From Pantoea wallisii (GTDB lineage Bacteria > Pseudomonadota > Gammaproteobacteria > Enterobacterales > Enterobacteriaceae), in assembly GCF_002095485.1 (NCBI RefSeq), contig NZ_MLFS01000004.1, positions 1-64,000 of the forward strand: a DNA stretch of 64,000 bases, in the 5' to 3' direction. The notes beneath the pieces were generated by a model. The model did not search any database. It saw only the letters and a program-made list of their open reading frames with translations, and was not told the DNA's origin. Each line of letters begins with the position of its first letter. The stretch's first letter is position 1. The translations under genes and the position numbers were made by a program. This document shows, one piece after another, positions 12,540 through 18,829 of this stretch.

Positions 12540-13157
12540 TTATTTAGCCGATGCAAAACGCGCAGCAGCTTCGTCCCAGTTCACAACATTCCAGAAGGCT
12601 TTGATGTAGTCAGGACGTTTGTTCTGATACTTCAGGTAGTACGCATGTTCCCACACGTCCAGACCGATGATTGGGAAACCGGATGCGCCGGAGATAGCTT
12701 CACCCATCAGCGGGTTGTCCTGGTTAGCCGTTGAAACAACCGCCAGTTTGTCGCCTTTTTTCACCAGCCATGCCCAGCCAGAGCCGAAACGGGTCGCTGC
12801 CGCTTTCTCGAACTCTTCCTGGAATTTCTCGACGCTGCCGAAATCTTTTTCGATAGCTGCTTTCAGGTCGCCCTGCAGCGTGGTGCCGGTCTTCAGGCCT
12901 TTCCAGAACAGGCTGTGGTTAGCGTGACCGCCCGCGTTGTTACGCAGTGGGCCTTTTTTGTCTGCTGGCAGCTGATCCAGTTTGGTGATCAGTTCGTCAA
13001 CCGGCAGGTCTGCGAATTCAGTACCTTCCAGCGCAGCGTTAGCGTTGTTAACGTAGGTCTGGTGGTGTTTAGTGTGATGGATTTCCATCGTCTGCTTGTC
13101 GAAGTGCGGTTCCAGTGCGTCGTAGGCGTACGGCAGGGATGGCAGTGAATAACTCAT
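12540..13157 (-). CDS. sodA: Manganese superoxide dismutase SodA
   Basis: Cytoplasmic enzyme that turns superoxide into hydrogen peroxide and oxygen. The 205 residues match E. coli SodA (206). Metal ligands are seen at His27 ([12 protein letters not shown]), in [10 protein letters not shown], and in the [20 protein letters not shown] block with Asp and His. The [10 protein letters not shown] and [10 protein letters not shown] contexts are those of the manganese form. Start at 13157 ([18 protein letters not shown]) with GGAGAGGAAG upstream; a further ATG at 13172 has no family support. Single-gene unit with its own terminator. Confidence 0.95.
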
Positions 13158-13315
13158 GTTCTTCCTCTCCATTTAGTGTTTTGCAGCACAACCTTGCCGG
13201 CGTGCCGCGTAAGCAGTCGGATCATTATAGTTAAAATCATGATCCGTAAAAGGGTTATCAATGCCTTAGAAATGATAAGGGTTTGATCAATCTGGCAAAG
13301 CATGCGCACACAAGG

Positions 13316-14341
13316 CTACACCTTGTGGGTACTGGCGCGCAGCTTAAGCTGTACCGGCAACTCGTTAATGGCTGGTGGTTCATCACCATTCAGCGCTGCC
13401 AGTAGCCGTTTGCCCGCCGTGCGCCCCATCTCTTCATAGGGCAGTACAACGCTGGTGAGCGGCGGCGAGCAGACGGCTGCCAGTGGACCGCCGCCGATGC
13501 TGGCGATCGCCAGCTGGCTCGGCATCGAGATGCCTGCAGCATGGCAGGCCATCATGGCGCCGCAGGCTACCTCATCGCTGGTGCAGATCAGCACATCCAG
13601 CTCCGGCCAGGTGAGACGAATCTCCGCCAGCAAGCTGTGTCCGGCAGCAAAAGTGGGCATTTTAGGCGATGTCACCACGCGATGCGGTGCCTGATTGAGC
13701 GCCAGCATGCCGCTGTGCCAGCCGTTCAGCAGCTGGCGAAAAATGGTGTTGTTAGTCTGCGTACACAGCAGTCCCAGGTGACGGTAGCCGCGCTCGACCA
13801 GGCTTTGCACCAGCTGGCGAATCGCTTTGGCATAATCAACACCAATACTGATCCCGGCTGACTCCTGATGCACGCCACCGATATCCATGACCGGCAGCCC
13901 GGAGTTGCTCAGTAACCGGTGTGCCTCTGCGGCATTATCAAAATTGAAATGCACCATCGCTGCCGGGTTGTAGGAGAGCAGCATCTCAATCAGCTCGCTC
14001 TCCTCTGCCGCCGAGTGGTTGGCCTCAGCCAGCATCATGTTATAGCCCTGCGGCCGTAAAACTTCCTGTAGCGCTTCCGAGACAATCGCGCTGCCCGGCG
14101 TGGCAAACGACGGCACCACCATGGTGATCAGCCGCGAGGACGCCGACGCAAGGTTGCGCGCCTGAACATTCGGCACATAGGCCAGTTCAGTGACTGCTGC
14201 ATCGATTTTGGCGCGGATCTCAGGGGAAACTTTCTCCGGCATACGCAAGGCGCGCGACGCTGTCATGGCGCTCACACCGACCAAACGGGCAACATCAGCC
14301 AGCGTACTTTTGCCGGTACTGCGCCGTCGTTTTTCTGTCAT
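13316..14341 (-). CDS. LacI-family regulator of the adjacent PTS operon (GntR-like)
   Basis: Transcriptional repressor of 341 residues: an N-terminal LacI-type helix-turn-helix (TLADVARLVGVSAMTASRAL) and hinge, then a periplasmic-binding-protein-like sugar-sensing domain. The family look is that of gluconate regulators of the GntR (E. coli) subgroup. It is divergent from the PTS genes that start at 14637, and the shared 295-base region has two GTTA-GC-TAAC palindromes like GntR operators. It therefore probably controls the PTS operon and itself. The inducer is unknown. Confidence 0.82.
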   Translation of the reverse strand: MTEKRRRSTGKSTLADVARLVGVSAMTASRALRMPEKVSPEIRAKIDAAVTELAYVPNVQARNLASASSRLITMVVPSFATPGSAIVSEALQEVLRPQGYNMMLAEANHSAAEESELIEMLLSYNPAAMVHFNFDNAAEAHRLLSNSGLPVMDIGGVHQESAGISIGVDYAKAIRQLVQSLVERGYRHLGLLCTQTNNTIFRQLLNGWHSGMLALNQAPHRVVTSPKMPTFAAGHSLLAEIRLTWPELDVLICTSDEVACGAMMACHAAGISMPSQLAIASIGGGPLAAVCSPPLTSVVLPYEEMGRTAGKRLLAALNGDEPPAINELPVQLKLRASTHKV

Positions 14342-14510
14342 GCGTTCTCCTGTGTAACTTGCTACTCATGCCCGCACGCAGCTTAAAACCAAAAGAGTCA
14401 GCGCGCTATGTTAAAAACCACAGAATCGGTCATCGGCGACCCATGAGAAAGATTCCGCAAACGGCGAGCATGTCAGGGTGTTGCAACGCTGACAAACCCG
14501 GCGCTTGAAA

Positions 14511-14557
14511 ATGTTATCGCTAACACAGTTTTTAACAAGATTCGTGTTAGCGCTAAC
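14511..14557. promoter_or_regulatory. Two LacI/GntR-type operators before the PTS operon
   Basis: ATGTTATCGCTAACAC (14511-14526) and GTGTTAGCGCTAAC (14544-14557) are palindromes of the GntR class, about 31 bases apart centre to centre, or three helical turns. The spacing would let two dimers bind on the same face. They lie between the divergent regulator and the EIIA gene. Confidence 0.7.
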
Positions 14558-14636
14558 TTTTGCGACAAACATCACAGAAAAAAGGCGAGAAAATCACCTA
14601 AAGTGCATCGCATCAACGAATAAACAGGAATTACTG

Positions 14637-15077
14637 ATGCTCACTCAATGGCTGACGCCGCAACACATTCGCGTGGTTGATCAGGTTAACGATTGGCAGC
14701 ACGCCGTGCGCTTATCCGCCGAGCCTCTGCTGGCTGAAGGTGCCATCAGCCCGGCGTATCTTGATGCGATCTTCACCTCGCACGCTGAGCTGGGCCCCTA
14801 TTATGTGCTGGCCCCGGGCCTGGCGATGCCGCATGCACGTCCGGAACAGGGCGCACGCAAGAATGGCTTATCGCTGTTGCATGTAAAAAACGGCGTGAGC
14901 TTCGAAGCAGATGAAAACGATCCGGTATTTGTCGTGATCATGCTGTGTGCTGTATCCGGCGACGATCATATCCAAATGATCACCGCGCTGGCTGAAGTAT
15001 TCAGCGATGAAACCCGCCTGCAGCAGTTGCTGTCGGCTTCTACCCTGCCAGCAATTGAAGCTGTCATTCAACATTAA
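14637..15077 (+). CDS. PTS EIIA component, mannitol/fructose-type (UlaC/SgcA-like)
   Basis: Cytoplasmic phosphocarrier of 146 residues that receives phosphate from HPr and passes it to EIIB. The active histidine is His66 in LAPGLAMPHARPEQGA, the standard motif of this EIIA family. The start at 14637 (MLTQWLTPQHIRVVD) has AGGA upstream; the longer frame from 14505 would run through both operators and is rejected. First gene of a four-gene set EIIA-EIIB-EIIC-epimerase. Confidence 0.88.
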   Translation: MLTQWLTPQHIRVVDQVNDWQHAVRLSAEPLLAEGAISPAYLDAIFTSHAELGPYYVLAPGLAMPHARPEQGARKNGLSLLHVKNGVSFEADENDPVFVVIMLCAVSGDDHIQMITALAEVFSDETRLQQLLSASTLPAIEAVIQH

Positions 15078-15095
15078 TTACCAGAGAATCCGATA

Positions 15096-15362
15096 ATGAA
15101 AAAAGTACTGATTGTGTGTGGAAATGGTTTAGGTAGCAGCTTCATTGTTGAAATGAACGTGAAGAAAATCATTACTGAGTTAGGCAAAGAGGCGGAAGTG
15201 GGCCATACCGATTTAACTTCGGCAAAATCTGAAAAGGCCGATTTAATTATCAGCGCCAAAGATATAGCCGATCAATTATCCGGCCATAGCGCACAGGTAT
15301 TTGGCCTGAGCAACCTACTGGATAATGCAAAAATCAAAGAGATTTTGGCGGAACACCTGTAA
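15096..15362 (+). CDS. PTS EIIB component, ascorbate-type (UlaB/SgcB-like)
   Basis: Phosphocarrier of 88 residues with the active cysteine Cys8 in the N-terminal loop IVCGNGLGSS, the pattern of lactose/ascorbate-type EIIB proteins. It follows the EIIA gene by 18 bases and precedes the membrane component, so it is part of the same transcript. The substrate is set by EIIC. Confidence 0.88.
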   Translation: MKKVLIVCGNGLGSSFIVEMNVKKIITELGKEAEVGHTDLTSAKSEKADLIISAKDIADQLSGHSAQVFGLSNLLDNAKIKEILAEHL

Positions 15363-15393
15363 CAACCACATATTTGCTCGTATGGAGTAAGTT

Positions 15394-16653
15394 ATGCTGC
15401 AGTTTATTATAAAGGATGTTCTTGGAACACCCGCAATACTTGTCGGCCTTTTCTCCCTGATTGGTTTATTACTGCAAAAGAAACCGGTATCCGATGTTAT
15501 TTCCGGTACGCTGAAAACCATCATGGGCTTTGTTATTCTCATCGCCGGGGCCAATTTAATTGCGGCCACACTGACCATTTTCAGTCAGCTGTTTGAGCAC
15601 TCGTTCAGTATCCAGGGCGTGGTGCCGAATACCGATGCCATGGCGGCGCTGGCGCAGAAAAATTACGGCACCGAAACCGCCATGATCATGGTGTTCGGCA
15701 TGCTGGTGAATATCCTGCTGGCGCGCATTACGCCGCTGAAATACATCTTCCTGACCGGCCACCACACGCTGTATATGTCGGCCATGCTGGCAGTGATCTT
15801 GTCGGTAGGCGGCGTGCACGGCTTCTGGCTGGTGGTGATTGGTTCACTTATTCTCGGCACCATGATGGTGGTCTGCCCGGCAATTCTGCAGCCCTTTACG
15901 CGCAAAATCACCAACTCTGACGATCTGGCGCTGGGCCACTTTGGCTCTACCGGCTATCTGCTGGCGGCGCTGGTGGGTAAAGCGGTTGGCAAAGGCAGCC
16001 CATCCATTGAAGAGCTGAAGGTGCCGAAGACCCTCAACTTCCTGCGTGATTCATCGGTCGCTATCTCACTGACCATGATGATTCTGTTTATTGCGCTGGT
16101 GCTGGTGGCGGGCAAAGCCTTTACTGAAACCCTGAGCGGTGGCCAGAACTTCATCGTCTTCGCCATCATCCAGTCAATCACCTTTGCCGCAGGCGTTTAT
16201 ATCATCCTTGCCGGTGTACGTATGGTGATTGCTGAGATCGTCCCCGCGTTTAAAGGTATCGCCGATAAGTTAGTGCCGAATGCAAAACCGGCGCTGGACT
16301 GCCCGACCGTCTTCCCGTTCGCACCAAACGCGGTGATTATCGGCTTCCTGTGCAGCTTCGCCGCCGGTTTGATCAGCATGTTCCTGTGTCCGCTGTTTGG
16401 CCTCAGCGTGATTGTGCCGGGCCTGGTACCGCACTTCTTCTGCGGCGCAACGGCTGGCGTATACGGCAACATTACCGGCGGACGTCGCGGCGCCATTATT
16501 GGTTCCTTTGTACAGGGCCTGCTGATCTCCTTCCTGCCCGCTATTTTACTGCCGCTGATGGGCGACCTCGGTTTTGCCTCCACCACCTTTGGCGATGCGG
16601 ACTTCGGCATCGTCGGTATCGTGCTCGGCCATATTATTTCGCTCTTCCATTGA
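15394..16653 (+). CDS. PTS EIIC permease, ascorbate-type (UlaA/SgaT family)
   Basis: Integral membrane permease of 419 residues with about ten or more hydrophobic segments, the channel of a PTS of the ascorbate (SgaT/UlaA) family. The N-terminus MLQFIIKDVLGTPAILVGLFSLIGLLLQKKPVSDVISGTLKTIMGF is typical. The operon has no UlaD/E/F enzymes and no lactonase, so ascorbate is unlikely. The neighbouring AlsE-like epimerase suggests a ketose or pentitol-derived phosphate. Substrate unknown. Confidence 0.85.
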   Translation: MLQFIIKDVLGTPAILVGLFSLIGLLLQKKPVSDVISGTLKTIMGFVILIAGANLIAATLTIFSQLFEHSFSIQGVVPNTDAMAALAQKNYGTETAMIMVFGMLVNILLARITPLKYIFLTGHHTLYMSAMLAVILSVGGVHGFWLVVIGSLILGTMMVVCPAILQPFTRKITNSDDLALGHFGSTGYLLAALVGKAVGKGSPSIEELKVPKTLNFLRDSSVAISLTMMILFIALVLVAGKAFTETLSGGQNFIVFAIIQSITFAAGVYIILAGVRMVIAEIVPAFKGIADKLVPNAKPALDCPTVFPFAPNAVIIGFLCSFAAGLISMFLCPLFGLSVIVPGLVPHFFCGATAGVYGNITGGRRGAIIGSFVQGLLISFLPAILLPLMGDLGFASTTFGDADFGIVGIVLGHIISLFH

Positions 16654-16656
16654 TGT

Positions 16657-16690
16657 CAGACACAGCGTCCGGTAACGGGCGCTGTGTCTG
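16657..16690. repeat. Strong intercistronic hairpin between EIIC and epimerase genes
   Basis: CAGACACAGCG pairs with CGCTGTGTCTG (11 bp), extended by about three inner pairs with one G-U, closing on a 6-base loop. No T run follows. It sits four bases after the EIIC stop and directly before the epimerase ribosome binding site, so it may protect upstream mRNA or tune the last gene. Confidence 0.6.
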
Positions 16691-16707
16691 TAATGAGGAA
16701 ACACCCC

Positions 16708-17388
16708 ATGAACGCCCGATTTTCACCGTCATTAATGTGCATGGATCTGACCCGCTTCCGTGAGCAGATCGAAGCGATGAACCCTACCGCCGCGTTTTAC
16801 CATGTTGATATTATGGACGGCAGCTATGTGAAGAATATTACGCTGTCGCCGTTCTTTATTGAGAATCTGCGCAAAATCACCGACGTGCCGATCGATGTGC
16901 ATTTAATGGTGAATCATCCGGAAGATATTATTCCGATGTGCATTGACGCCGGCGCCGATGTTATTAGTTTCCATCCGGAAACCGCCAACAATAAAATATT
17001 CCGCCTGCTGACGCAGATTAAAGATGCCGGCCGCCGCTGTGGGGTAGTGTTGAATCCCGCGACGCCCGCAGAAACTATTCGTGAATATGCGCATCTGCTG
17101 GATAAGGTGACGGTCATGTCGGTCGATCCCGGTTTCGCCGGCCAGAAATTTATTCCGGAGACGCTGAATAAGATTCGCCAGCTTATCGCCATGCGTAAAG
17201 AGCACGGCTATCACTATCTGACCGAGATTGATGGTTCATGTAATGCAAAAACGTTTAAACAGATCGCTGCGTCTGGCGTTGATGTATTTATTGTCGGCAC
17301 CTCGGGTCTCTTTAATCTGCACGATGATGTCGCGCAGGCCTGGCAGAAGATGGAGAGCATTTTCGCCACGGAAACCGCAGCTGCGTGA
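16708..17388 (+). CDS. Ribulose-phosphate 3-epimerase family protein, AlsE-like
   Basis: TIM-barrel epimerase of 226 residues. It begins SPSLMCMDL and has the metal/substrate motifs YHVDIMDG, VDVHLMVNHPED, VDPGFAGQKFIPE and EIDGSCN, shared with E. coli AlsE (D-allulose-6-phosphate 3-epimerase) more closely than with Rpe; the SLMCMDL start and the GTSGLFN block are AlsE-like. The start at 16708 has GAGGA upstream; the longer frame from 16684 overlaps the hairpin. Last gene of the PTS operon, so it probably acts on the phosphorylated product of that transporter. The actual sugar is not known. Confidence 0.8.
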   Translation: MNARFSPSLMCMDLTRFREQIEAMNPTAAFYHVDIMDGSYVKNITLSPFFIENLRKITDVPIDVHLMVNHPEDIIPMCIDAGADVISFHPETANNKIFRLLTQIKDAGRRCGVVLNPATPAETIREYAHLLDKVTVMSVDPGFAGQKFIPETLNKIRQLIAMRKEHGYHYLTEIDGSCNAKTFKQIAASGVDVFIVGTSGLFNLHDDVAQAWQKMESIFATETAAA

Positions 17389-17488: not shown

Positions 17489-18829
17489 CTACCGCCCTAA
17501 CTCTGTCAGTGACTTATCCAGCGCGCCCACCAGCCAGTCGATATCGCTTAACTGGAACGCCAGAGGTGGGCGCAGCTTCAGCACATTACCATAAGGGCCG
17601 GCTACCGAGGTCAGCACATGGTGTTCGCGCAGCTTCTCAATCACATCCAGCGCCAGCGCTTTATCCGGCGTTTTACTGGCGCGATCCTGTACCAGCTCAA
17701 AACCAATAAACAGCCCGGCTCCGCGTACATCGCCGATGCACTCATGCCGCGACATCAGCGCCTGCAGCTCGGCCAGCAGCTGCGCCCCTACCACGCGGCT
17801 GTGCTCCTGCAGGCCCTCTTCTTTAATCACGGACAACACCGCCTGCGCAGCCGCCATCGCCACCGGGTTGCCGCCAAACGTATTGAAGTAAGGGATGGCA
17901 TCGCTGAACGCGGCCAGCACATGGCTTTTTGCCAGCAGCCCCGAAACCGGAATGCCGTTGCCCATTGGCTTGCCGGTGGTGATCACATCCGGTACTACGC
18001 CATGGCGGGCAAAGCCCCAGAAGGTATCACCGGTGCGGGCGAAGCCTGGCTGCACTTCATCGGCGATGAAAATGCCGCCGTTGGCGTGCACCACATCAAC
18101 TGCTTTTTGCAGGAAACCGCGCGGATTCGGCAGGACGCCATCGGAAGAGAAGATCGAATCAGCAAGGAAGCCGGCAAATTTAATGCCGTGCGCGTGCATG
18201 TCGTTAATCTGCTTCTGGATCTCGCTGGCAAACCACTCACTAAGGTCGGGCGCAGCCACGCGATACGCGTCCGGTGGCGGCACTAATCGCGTGGTGGCGG
18301 CCAGTGGCTGGCCACTGCCCAGCGCCGGTGATGCGCCGGAGGTGAGATCGCTGGTGCCGTGATAGGCCTCCTGCGACACAATAATACCGGTGCCGCCACT
18401 AAAAGCACGCGCCACGCGAATCGCCAGATCGTTCGCCTCTGACCCGGTGCACATATACATGGCGCGGTCGATAGCCTCCGGCGTGGTCGCCAGCAGCGCT
18501 TCGCTGTAATCAAGAATACGCTCATGCAGATAGCGGGTATGCGTGTTCAGCATCTTCATCTGCTGCGTGACCGCATCAATAACTGCCGGATGGCAGTGCC
18601 CAATACTTGCCACGTTGTTATACACATCAAGATACTTATTACCCGCCGCATCCCACAGATACTGCCCTTCACCCCGAACCAGATGTACCGGCTTGCGGTA
18701 AAACAGACGGTAGGACTCACCCAATATGTGGCTGCGCTTCTCCGTTAGCTGTCGGGTAGCCGCGTCCAGACCTTCAGCATCTTCAGCACGAAAACTGTTG
18801 GTATCCATGATGGTGGATCGTGTCGCCAT
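17489..18829 (-). CDS. Class III PLP-dependent aminotransferase
   Basis: Cytoplasmic pyridoxal-phosphate enzyme of 446 residues from the class III (omega) aminotransferase family. Visible motifs are the cofactor-binding GSEANDLAIRVAR, the IADEVQPGFARTGDTFWGF block with the Asp that holds the pyridine nitrogen, and the Schiff-base lysine in VITTGKPMGNGIP. The sequence style is that of the branch including alanine-glyoxylate aminotransferase 2 and ethanolamine-phosphate phospho-lyase. Start with GGGAG seven bases upstream. Divergent from a DeoR-type regulator, which likely controls it. Substrate unknown. Confidence 0.82.
   Translation of the reverse strand: MATRSTIMDTNSFRAEDAEGLDAATRQLTEKRSHILGESYRLFYRKPVHLVRGEGQYLWDAAGNKYLDVYNNVASIGHCHPAVIDAVTQQMKMLNTHTRYLHERILDYSEALLATTPEAIDRAMYMCTGSEANDLAIRVARAFSGGTGIIVSQEAYHGTSDLTSGASPALGSGQPLAATTRLVPPPDAYRVAAPDLSEWFASEIQKQINDMHAHGIKFAGFLADSIFSSDGVLPNPRGFLQKAVDVVHANGGIFIADEVQPGFARTGDTFWGFARHGVVPDVITTGKPMGNGIPVSGLLAKSHVLAAFSDAIPYFNTFGGNPVAMAAAQAVLSVIKEEGLQEHSRVVGAQLLAELQALMSRHECIGDVRGAGLFIGFELVQDRASKTPDKALALDVIEKLREHHVLTSVAGPYGNVLKLRPPLAFQLSDIDWLVGALDKSLTELGR

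Follow-up and report, generated by a model that had tools for sequence, protein, structure and literature searches.

An ascorbate-type phosphotransferase cluster with an AlsE-like epimerase in Pantoea wallisii, a candidate system for ketose uptake

Gene content and the AlsE-like epimerase

We analyzed a five-gene cluster at positions 13316-17388 of a 64,000-nucleotide stretch of Pantoea wallisii DNA (assembly GCF_002095485.1, contig NZ_MLFS01000004.1, positions 1 to 64,000; hereafter the window), in which the open reading frame (ORF) listing places a divergent gene for a LacI-type regulator next to genes for the EIIA, EIIB and EIIC components of a phosphotransferase system (PTS) and for a sugar-phosphate epimerase. 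The regulator gene (13316-14341, minus strand) encodes a 341 amino acid GntR/IdnR-like protein of the LacI family, a probable repressor with the Pfam domains LacI and Peripla_BP_3. The plus strand carries the genes for EIIA (14637-15077; 146 amino acids; PTS_EIIA_2), EIIB (15096-15362; 88 amino acids; PTS_IIB), EIIC (15394-16653; 419 amino acids; PF03611, 498 bits), which belongs to the ascorbate/galactitol superfamily (EIIC-GAT), and an AlsE-like ketose-6-phosphate 3-epimerase (16708-17388; 226 amino acids; Ribul_P_3_epim PF00834, 210 bits). The original prediction, made from the nucleotide sequence, had described this combination of PTS components, epimerase and LacI-type regulator, and the ORFs are as it described them. 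It had also stated that no ascorbate-specific lactonase, decarboxylase, UlaE or UlaF gene is present, which holds for the cluster, the rest of the genome not having been searched for them.

The epimerase passes the NCBIfam equivalog model for AlsE (NF007266; 363.7 bits, cut-off 271) and narrowly misses that for Rpe (TIGR01163; 211.0 bits, cut-off 212.6), and its closest solved relative is the D-allulose-6-phosphate 3-epimerase 3CT7 (7.9e-76; best Rpe 1.3e-46). In a tree of 85 epimerase rows, for which the program warned of several long branches, it falls within an Enterobacterales clade of 31 rows (support 100/100), itself nested in an AlsE clade (67 rows, 100/99) with Escherichia coli AlsE inside it and E. 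coli Rpe outside. All but two of the 31 clade members adjoin an EIIC of the type found in the window (29 rows); the other two are an Erwinia psidii copy (L068) accompanied only by a fructose-type PTS, and a decayed copy (L066). Independent recruitment of AlsE in Priestia (L077) is hinted at by the tree and was not retained, as an approximately unbiased (AU) test does not reject a single clade with the Enterobacterales copies (p 0.35).

The beta-8 loop of the epimerase is one residue longer than that of Rpe, reading IVGTSGLFN as in AlsE 3CT7 where Rpe has a gap, and the extra residue (GTSG or GASG) is present in every Enterobacterales-clade copy whose alignment covers the loop, the L041 and L072 epimerases being truncated in this comparison. 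Work by Chan et al. in 2008 is said to have shown that this extra residue gives AlsE its preference for hexulose (hexulose-6-phosphate) over pentulose substrates. AlsE combined with a phosphatase makes allulose from fructose-6-phosphate, according to the available text of a paper that cites the Chan et al. study (PMC9257026). The original prediction had named an ordinary Rpe paralogue as a finding that would speak against it; the model scores, the placement in the AlsE clade and the longer loop appear to rule out such a paralogue as a matter of family membership, though not as a possible activity.

The EIIC pocket and a residue that follows the epimerase gene

The EIIC is 30% identical to the L-ascorbate transporter UlaA (phmmer 3e-53 to UlaA 4RP8). 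The available text of PMC6048161 gives 11 L-ascorbate contacts of UlaA (T86, Y87, H135, I136, Q139, H194, Q195, D314, I358, F362 and M410), at which the window EIIC has T, D, H, H, Y, H, F, D, V, F and D. Thus, of the contacts given there, five are kept and six are changed (Y87D, I136H, Q139Y, Q195F, I358V and M410D), with position 410 lying outside the phmmer alignment and resting on the multiple alignment. For the other finding that the original prediction had named as adverse, a response of the operon to ascorbate, the relevant sequence observation is this replacement of contacts. The same contact pattern, together with the hinge positions, recurs in 43 of the 50 EIIC rows of the first locus set, including Priestia endophytica, some genomes being counted twice. 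The first two contacts, UlaA Thr86-Tyr87, align with Thr80-Asp81 of the window EIIC (codons at 15631-15636, plus strand), so that position 80 in window numbering is position 86 in UlaA and alignment numbering.

Position 86 follows the presence of a downstream epimerase gene closely. Among 79 distinct EIIC rows (L163 was dropped, its contig ending 3 bp downstream), 36 combine Thr with the epimerase gene and none combines another residue with it, while 42 rows lack both Thr and the gene (Asn in 41, Ala in one). The single row with Thr and no downstream epimerase gene (L155) comes from a genome, G099, that has a canonical als operon elsewhere; with L155 left out, position 86 alone among the 418 columns fully separates the two sets. 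It should be noted that position 86 was among the 11 contact sites fixed beforehand from the published contacts, and that its link to the epimerase gene was noticed in the data, that is, found and not predicted. On an EIIC tree built without columns 86-87, residue 86 changes three times and the epimerase gene four times; over 200 random pairings, the three independent pairs agree almost every time, giving a median sign test of 0.25, with significance out of reach.

Two separate epimerase-less clades, one of them nested within the clade of the window, have the same substitutions at window positions 80, 82 and 157, with overlapping ones at position 83. When the regulator (338 columns), EIIA (145) and EIIB (88) were compared over the same loci, three from one clade and four from the other, no column had the same new residue in both. 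Recombination as the source of the parallel Thr/Asn switch was considered and set aside, since identity plots show no local rise toward the other epimerase-less clade near codon 80. Taken as a sequence pattern, these observations suggest that one transporter residue is tuned to whether C3 epimerization is needed. More speculatively, and with the balance of probability somewhat against it, Thr80 may set the C3 epimer that is taken up, Thr going with a 3R ketose (D-allulose or D-ribulose) and an AlsE-type epimerase, and Asn with a 3S ketose (D-fructose or D-xylulose) for which no epimerase would be needed.

We then extended the comparison to a 295-genome sample of the family, calling the EIIC at E <=1e-190 and the AlsE-type enzyme at E <=1e-60, which gave 22 genomes with this EIIC and 56 with the enzyme. 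All 14 genomes with a Thr-type EIIC have an AlsE-type enzyme (13 linked, one elsewhere), as do five of the eight with an Asn-type EIIC (elsewhere in the genome) and 37 of the 273 that lack this EIIC, reduced genomes being among these 273. Six of the nine epimerase-less EIIC genomes have AlsE elsewhere, against the 37/273 (Fisher 0.0005, relatedness ignored). This excess counts for little, because eight of the nine are Asn-type, possibly with a different sugar as substrate; the three that lack AlsE (G215, G318 and G388, all of one genus) are Asn-type as well. A second AlsE is also not significantly commoner in epimerase-less than in epimerase-carrying genomes (6/9 against 4/13; Fisher 0.19, relatedness ignored). 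Separately, the genome of the window (G000) carries on contig C37 (L132/L144) a second EIIC-GAT, accompanied by an EIIB, a class II aldolase and a kinase of the phosphofructokinase type, by its looks a tagatose-like route.

Regulator, operators and promoter

The best NCBIfam matches of the regulator are GntR models, all below their cut-offs: it scores 178.7 and 165.8 bits against GntR/IdnR models (cut-offs 433 and 500) and 238.4 bits against the GntR model NF052440 (cut-off 400). Its recognition helix reads V-S-A-M-T-A-S-R, that of GntR V-T-K-M-T-V-S-R. Upstream of the EIIA gene lie operator 1, GTTATCGCTAAC (14513-14524), and operator 2, GTTAGCGCTAAC (14546-14557), a pair that is kept in relatives. 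The two GntR-like operators three turns apart that had been reported earlier are thus confirmed as exact GTTAnCGnTAAC matches 33 bp apart, centre to centre. With at most one mismatch, GTTAnCGnTAAC has nine matches in the window against 0.83 expected, a number reached in none of 100 shuffles, and the only exact matches are these two intergenic sites. Across the whole genome (4.65 Mb, 149 contigs), the slightly longer pattern TGTTAnCGnTAAC occurs at six distinct places, two at the cluster, one at gntR-gntK and three elsewhere; the same pattern read backwards, as a control, has two matches.

The gntR-gntK site is flanked by genes identified by eye as gntR and gntK, and an operator class with a central CG is common to this region and the cluster. 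Because of this site in the genome's own gntR-gntK region, the label "GntR-like operator" is justified, and GntR cross-talk may occur. The regulator thus resembles the gluconate repressors GntR and IdnR in being of LacI type and in sharing their operator, and differs in scoring below their equivalog cut-offs and in not lying among gluconate genes. The available text of PMC4052901 describes spacing peaks of 13, 22 and 32 bp for LacI-family sites and a central CG in even palindromes; the spacing in the cluster is close to the 32-bp peak given there.

To follow the operators through relatives, 50 loci were surveyed upstream of the EIIC gene (the window, L024, L044-L072 and L167-L185), of which L066, L068 and L072 have no EIIC to anchor on, leaving 47 to be scored. 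The pair is present in 42 of these and a single site in five, namely L069 and L182, both Thr86-type with an epimerase gene, and the epimerase-less L170, L178 and L180. After four duplicates were dropped, 38 distinct upstream segments have the pair at a spacing of 32-35 bp.

Directly downstream of operator 2 lies a CRP-like element, TGCGA-N6-TCACA (14561-14576, plus strand), with a presumed function in activation and one mismatch to the consensus TGTGA-N6-TCACA. The relaxed pattern TGnGA-N6-TCAC is found at this place in 37 of the 38 segments, against 0 for the reversed control, and no segment has the perfect consensus. A possible -10 box, TAAAGT (14599-14604, plus strand), puts the centre of the CRP-like element near -42, about 42 bp before the expected start, and TATAGT, TAAAGT or TACAGT occupies the -10 place in 28 of the 38 segments; a consensus promoter scan did not list a promoter at this TAAAGT. 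We infer from these motifs a promoter with a CRP-like element and a TAAAGT box upstream of the EIIA gene, for which the ATG at 14637 is the sensible start, the longest ORF beginning at 14505, inside the operators. In such an arrangement the divergent LacI-type protein would bind both operators and block the CRP-activated promoter until released by the sugar or its phosphate.

Relatives and candidate substrates

A search with the epimerase through the species genomes collection yielded 78 distinct loci (from the best 80 of 83). The gene order regulator-EIIA-EIIB-EIIC-epimerase recurs in Pantoea, Erwinia, Klebsiella, Kluyvera, Leclercia, Phytobacter and Winslowiella, all Enterobacterales, and Klebsiella pneumoniae strain 176 (L024) carries a cluster like that of the window; the copy in Tatumella looks incomplete, with no EIIA found and a short EIIB. 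A class-wide search with the EIIC gave a match at 1e-100 in one of 369 genomes, its own. In the window, the cluster is flanked by genes named by eye as superoxide-dismutase-like (12540-13172) and aminotransferase-like (17489-18829).

Gene neighbors were counted at 33 distinct PTS-epimerase loci whose downstream DNA extends for 5 kb or more. Neither a ROK/AlsK kinase nor RpiB was found at any of the 33 (same strand, within 6.5 kb downstream), whereas ATP-binding cassette (ABC)-type alsE loci have a ROK kinase in 21/21 and RpiB in 14/21 cases. This difference argues for a ketose rather than D-allose, which is accordingly disfavored as substrate. A fructose-type PTS is also present at 14 of the 33 loci, and in Tetragenococcus, Levilactobacillus and Erwinia psidii this epimerase type accompanies a fructose-type PTS without any ascorbate-type EIIC. 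Winslowiella has the cluster roughly 4-5 kb away from an ABC als operon that carries an AlsE of its own.

Three further neighborhoods were recorded as side observations. In Winslowiella arboricola (L070, 9056-12930), genes for a nucleoside hydrolase and two LPMO-domain proteins separate the PTS-type AlsE cluster from the ABC-type one. Another variety of ABC-type alsE operon (L201 and L203, in genomes G185 and G166) has a nucleoside hydrolase near a ROK kinase, and in L203 also a periplasmic binding protein and a PfkB kinase; for this operon, salvage of psicofuranosyl or of ordinary ribonucleosides is possible. In Enterococcus florum (L094, 2952-8669), mannose-type PTS-like genes, a zinc dehydrogenase and a SIS-domain protein precede an AlsE-like epimerase.

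The cluster was compared with several known systems. It shares with E. coli UlaABC, the L-ascorbate PTS, the EIIC superfamily PF03611 and separate EIIA, EIIB and EIIC genes, and differs in its LacI-type regulator, the lack of UlaDEFG and the divergent EIIC described above. It shares with the E. coli als operon (D-allose ABC transporter, AlsE and AlsK) an AlsE-type 3-epimerase of the same clade with the longer loop, but has a PTS in place of ABC transporter and kinase, no RpiB/AlsI alongside and a LacI/GntR-like regulator. An E. coli locus (L025) that we take, from its deoxyribose-type neighbors, to be a Vpe-like PTS likewise has a LacI regulator, EIIA, EIIB and an EIIC 61% identical to that of the window, but no epimerase, and Asn-Glu at positions 86-87. 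In the psicose locus of K. pneumoniae, which according to the available text of PMC6020474 comprises a permease, a kinase and an AlsE-annotated gene and serves D-allulose use, permease and kinase stand where the cluster has a PTS.

Since the cluster provides only for transport, phosphorylation and C3 epimerization, the incoming sugar, once phosphorylated, should stand one C3 inversion away from a central metabolite. The simple cases are D-allulose, leading to fructose-6-phosphate, and D-ribulose, leading to xylulose-5-phosphate; we put the first at about an even chance and the second well below it. On balance, though by no wide measure, we favor an inducible, catabolite-controlled PTS for a ketose needing C3 inversion, most likely D-allulose (D-psicose). 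EIIA and EIIB would pass phosphate to the sugar held by EIIC, giving D-allulose-6-phosphate, and the AlsE-like enzyme would invert C3 to give fructose-6-phosphate, which enters glycolysis. The original prediction of uptake of "a ketose such as D-allulose, or a related sugar" thus gains support from the AlsE clade, the beta-8 loop and the altered EIIC contacts, with D-ribulose as a lesser candidate. The fructose-type PTS that accompanies 14 of the 33 loci, the AlsE-type enzyme in all 14 Thr-type genomes, the tie of Thr80 to the epimerase gene, the conserved operator pair and the nearby ABC als operon of Winslowiella are counted in favor of the D-allulose reading as well.

Several observations weigh against D-allulose. 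The epimerase passes the broader Rpe subfamily model PRK05581 (197.1 bits, cut-off 165), and AlsE is promiscuous for ribulose-5-phosphate. The genome of the window has a second AlsE in an ABC operon, and AlsE activity is therefore not unique to the cluster. The EIIC passes the NCBIfam model NF006919, "PTS ascorbate transporter subunit IIC" (596 bits, cut-off 380). Finally, transketolase genes follow the epimerase gene in L058, L060, L061, L062, L066 and L174 and transaldolase genes do so in L058 and L066 (transketolase at three of the 33 loci plus the two shorter loci L060 and L061, transaldolase at one of the 33), and transketolase genes follow 17 of 33 distinct distant EIICs of the Asn-Glu/Ala-Glu type and none of 10 Asn-Asp EIICs; the counts for the distant and Asn-Asp EIICs are lower bounds, many of those loci having only about 1.5 kb downstream.

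These neighbors keep D-ribulose alive, and an epimerase followed by transaldolase and transketolase reads naturally as a pentulose-5-phosphate route. The EII complex would then take up D-ribulose as ribulose-5-phosphate, and the AlsE-like enzyme, as a dedicated Rpe, would deliver xylulose-5-phosphate to transketolase and transaldolase, a reading drawn from the genes directly after the epimerase in the six loci and after the distant EIICs. We consider it unlikely, given the AlsE-clade placement of the epimerase, the longer beta-8 loop in every PTS-linked clade copy covering it and the score just under the Rpe equivalog cut-off; moreover, an Rpe-like match is also present in the window's genome and in 21 other scanned genomes with this EIIC, and a fructose-type PTS is far more frequent at the 33 loci (14) than transketolase (3).

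Two observations on these neighborhoods are given for the record. In Klebsiella spallanzanii (L066, 7353-9713 and beyond), a decayed second copy retains paired operators, a remnant EIIA and an epimerase frame that is still open, after which come matches to transaldolase and transketolase. Split transketolase genes follow Asn-Glu-type EIICs in many Enterobacteriaceae (L209, 5371-7148, in Salmonella, where this EIIC is labelled ascorbate, and L220-L231), and also in Niallia (L206, 6399-8260).

Rather improbable, in our view, is another 3R ketose or derivative handled by the same epimerization chemistry, such as a heptulose epimeric at C3, D-sorbose/D-tagatose or some unknown sugar of plants. Compared with UlaA the pocket is novel, and transketolases, the split ones among them, go with the wider subfamily, so the ligand range may exceed hexuloses; yet no further kinase, aldolase or isomerase of the sort that most such products call for was seen in the surveyed loci. 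That the system is a genuine PTS for L-ascorbate or a sugar acid, as the automatic label and the NF006919 score would have it, is hardly credible, since six of the 11 contacts are replaced, ulaG, ulaD, ulaE and ulaF are missing from the cluster, and the remaining ascorbate models, for IIC, IIBC, IIA and IIB, all give scores under their cut-offs (NF009549, NF007094, NF007694 and NF007586; for the EIIC, 543 bits against 890 with NF009549 and 355 against 687 with NF007094). UlaE, moreover, belongs to another enzyme family.

Use of D-psicose is on record: the available Biolog tables list it by Erwinia teleogrylli (PMC4723187) and two Enterobacter species (PMC3728145), and that of PMC3570286 shows a plus for the column Pa and a minus for strain BM39 and the column Pv. 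None of these records, as far as the available text goes, could be tied to a genome with this locus, and the matches listed hold no usable D-psicose record for Leclercia, Kluyvera, Phytobacter or Tatumella. In the literature searched, no assignment of an ascorbate-family PTS to D-allulose was found.

The automatic label of this EIIC is "ascorbate"; if the D-allulose reading is true, many Enterobacterales would possess a two-step PTS route for a sugar that now serves as a low-calorie sweetener. The residue that changes in step with the epimerase gene makes the substrate question directly testable, the Thr/Asn switch offering a one-residue test of the way in which EIIC proteins distinguish sugar stereochemistry and a sequence rule by which mislabelled "ascorbate" PTSs could be sorted by substrate. 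If the proposed role of Thr80 is true, transporter stereoselectivity and enzyme content would have been gained and lost together.

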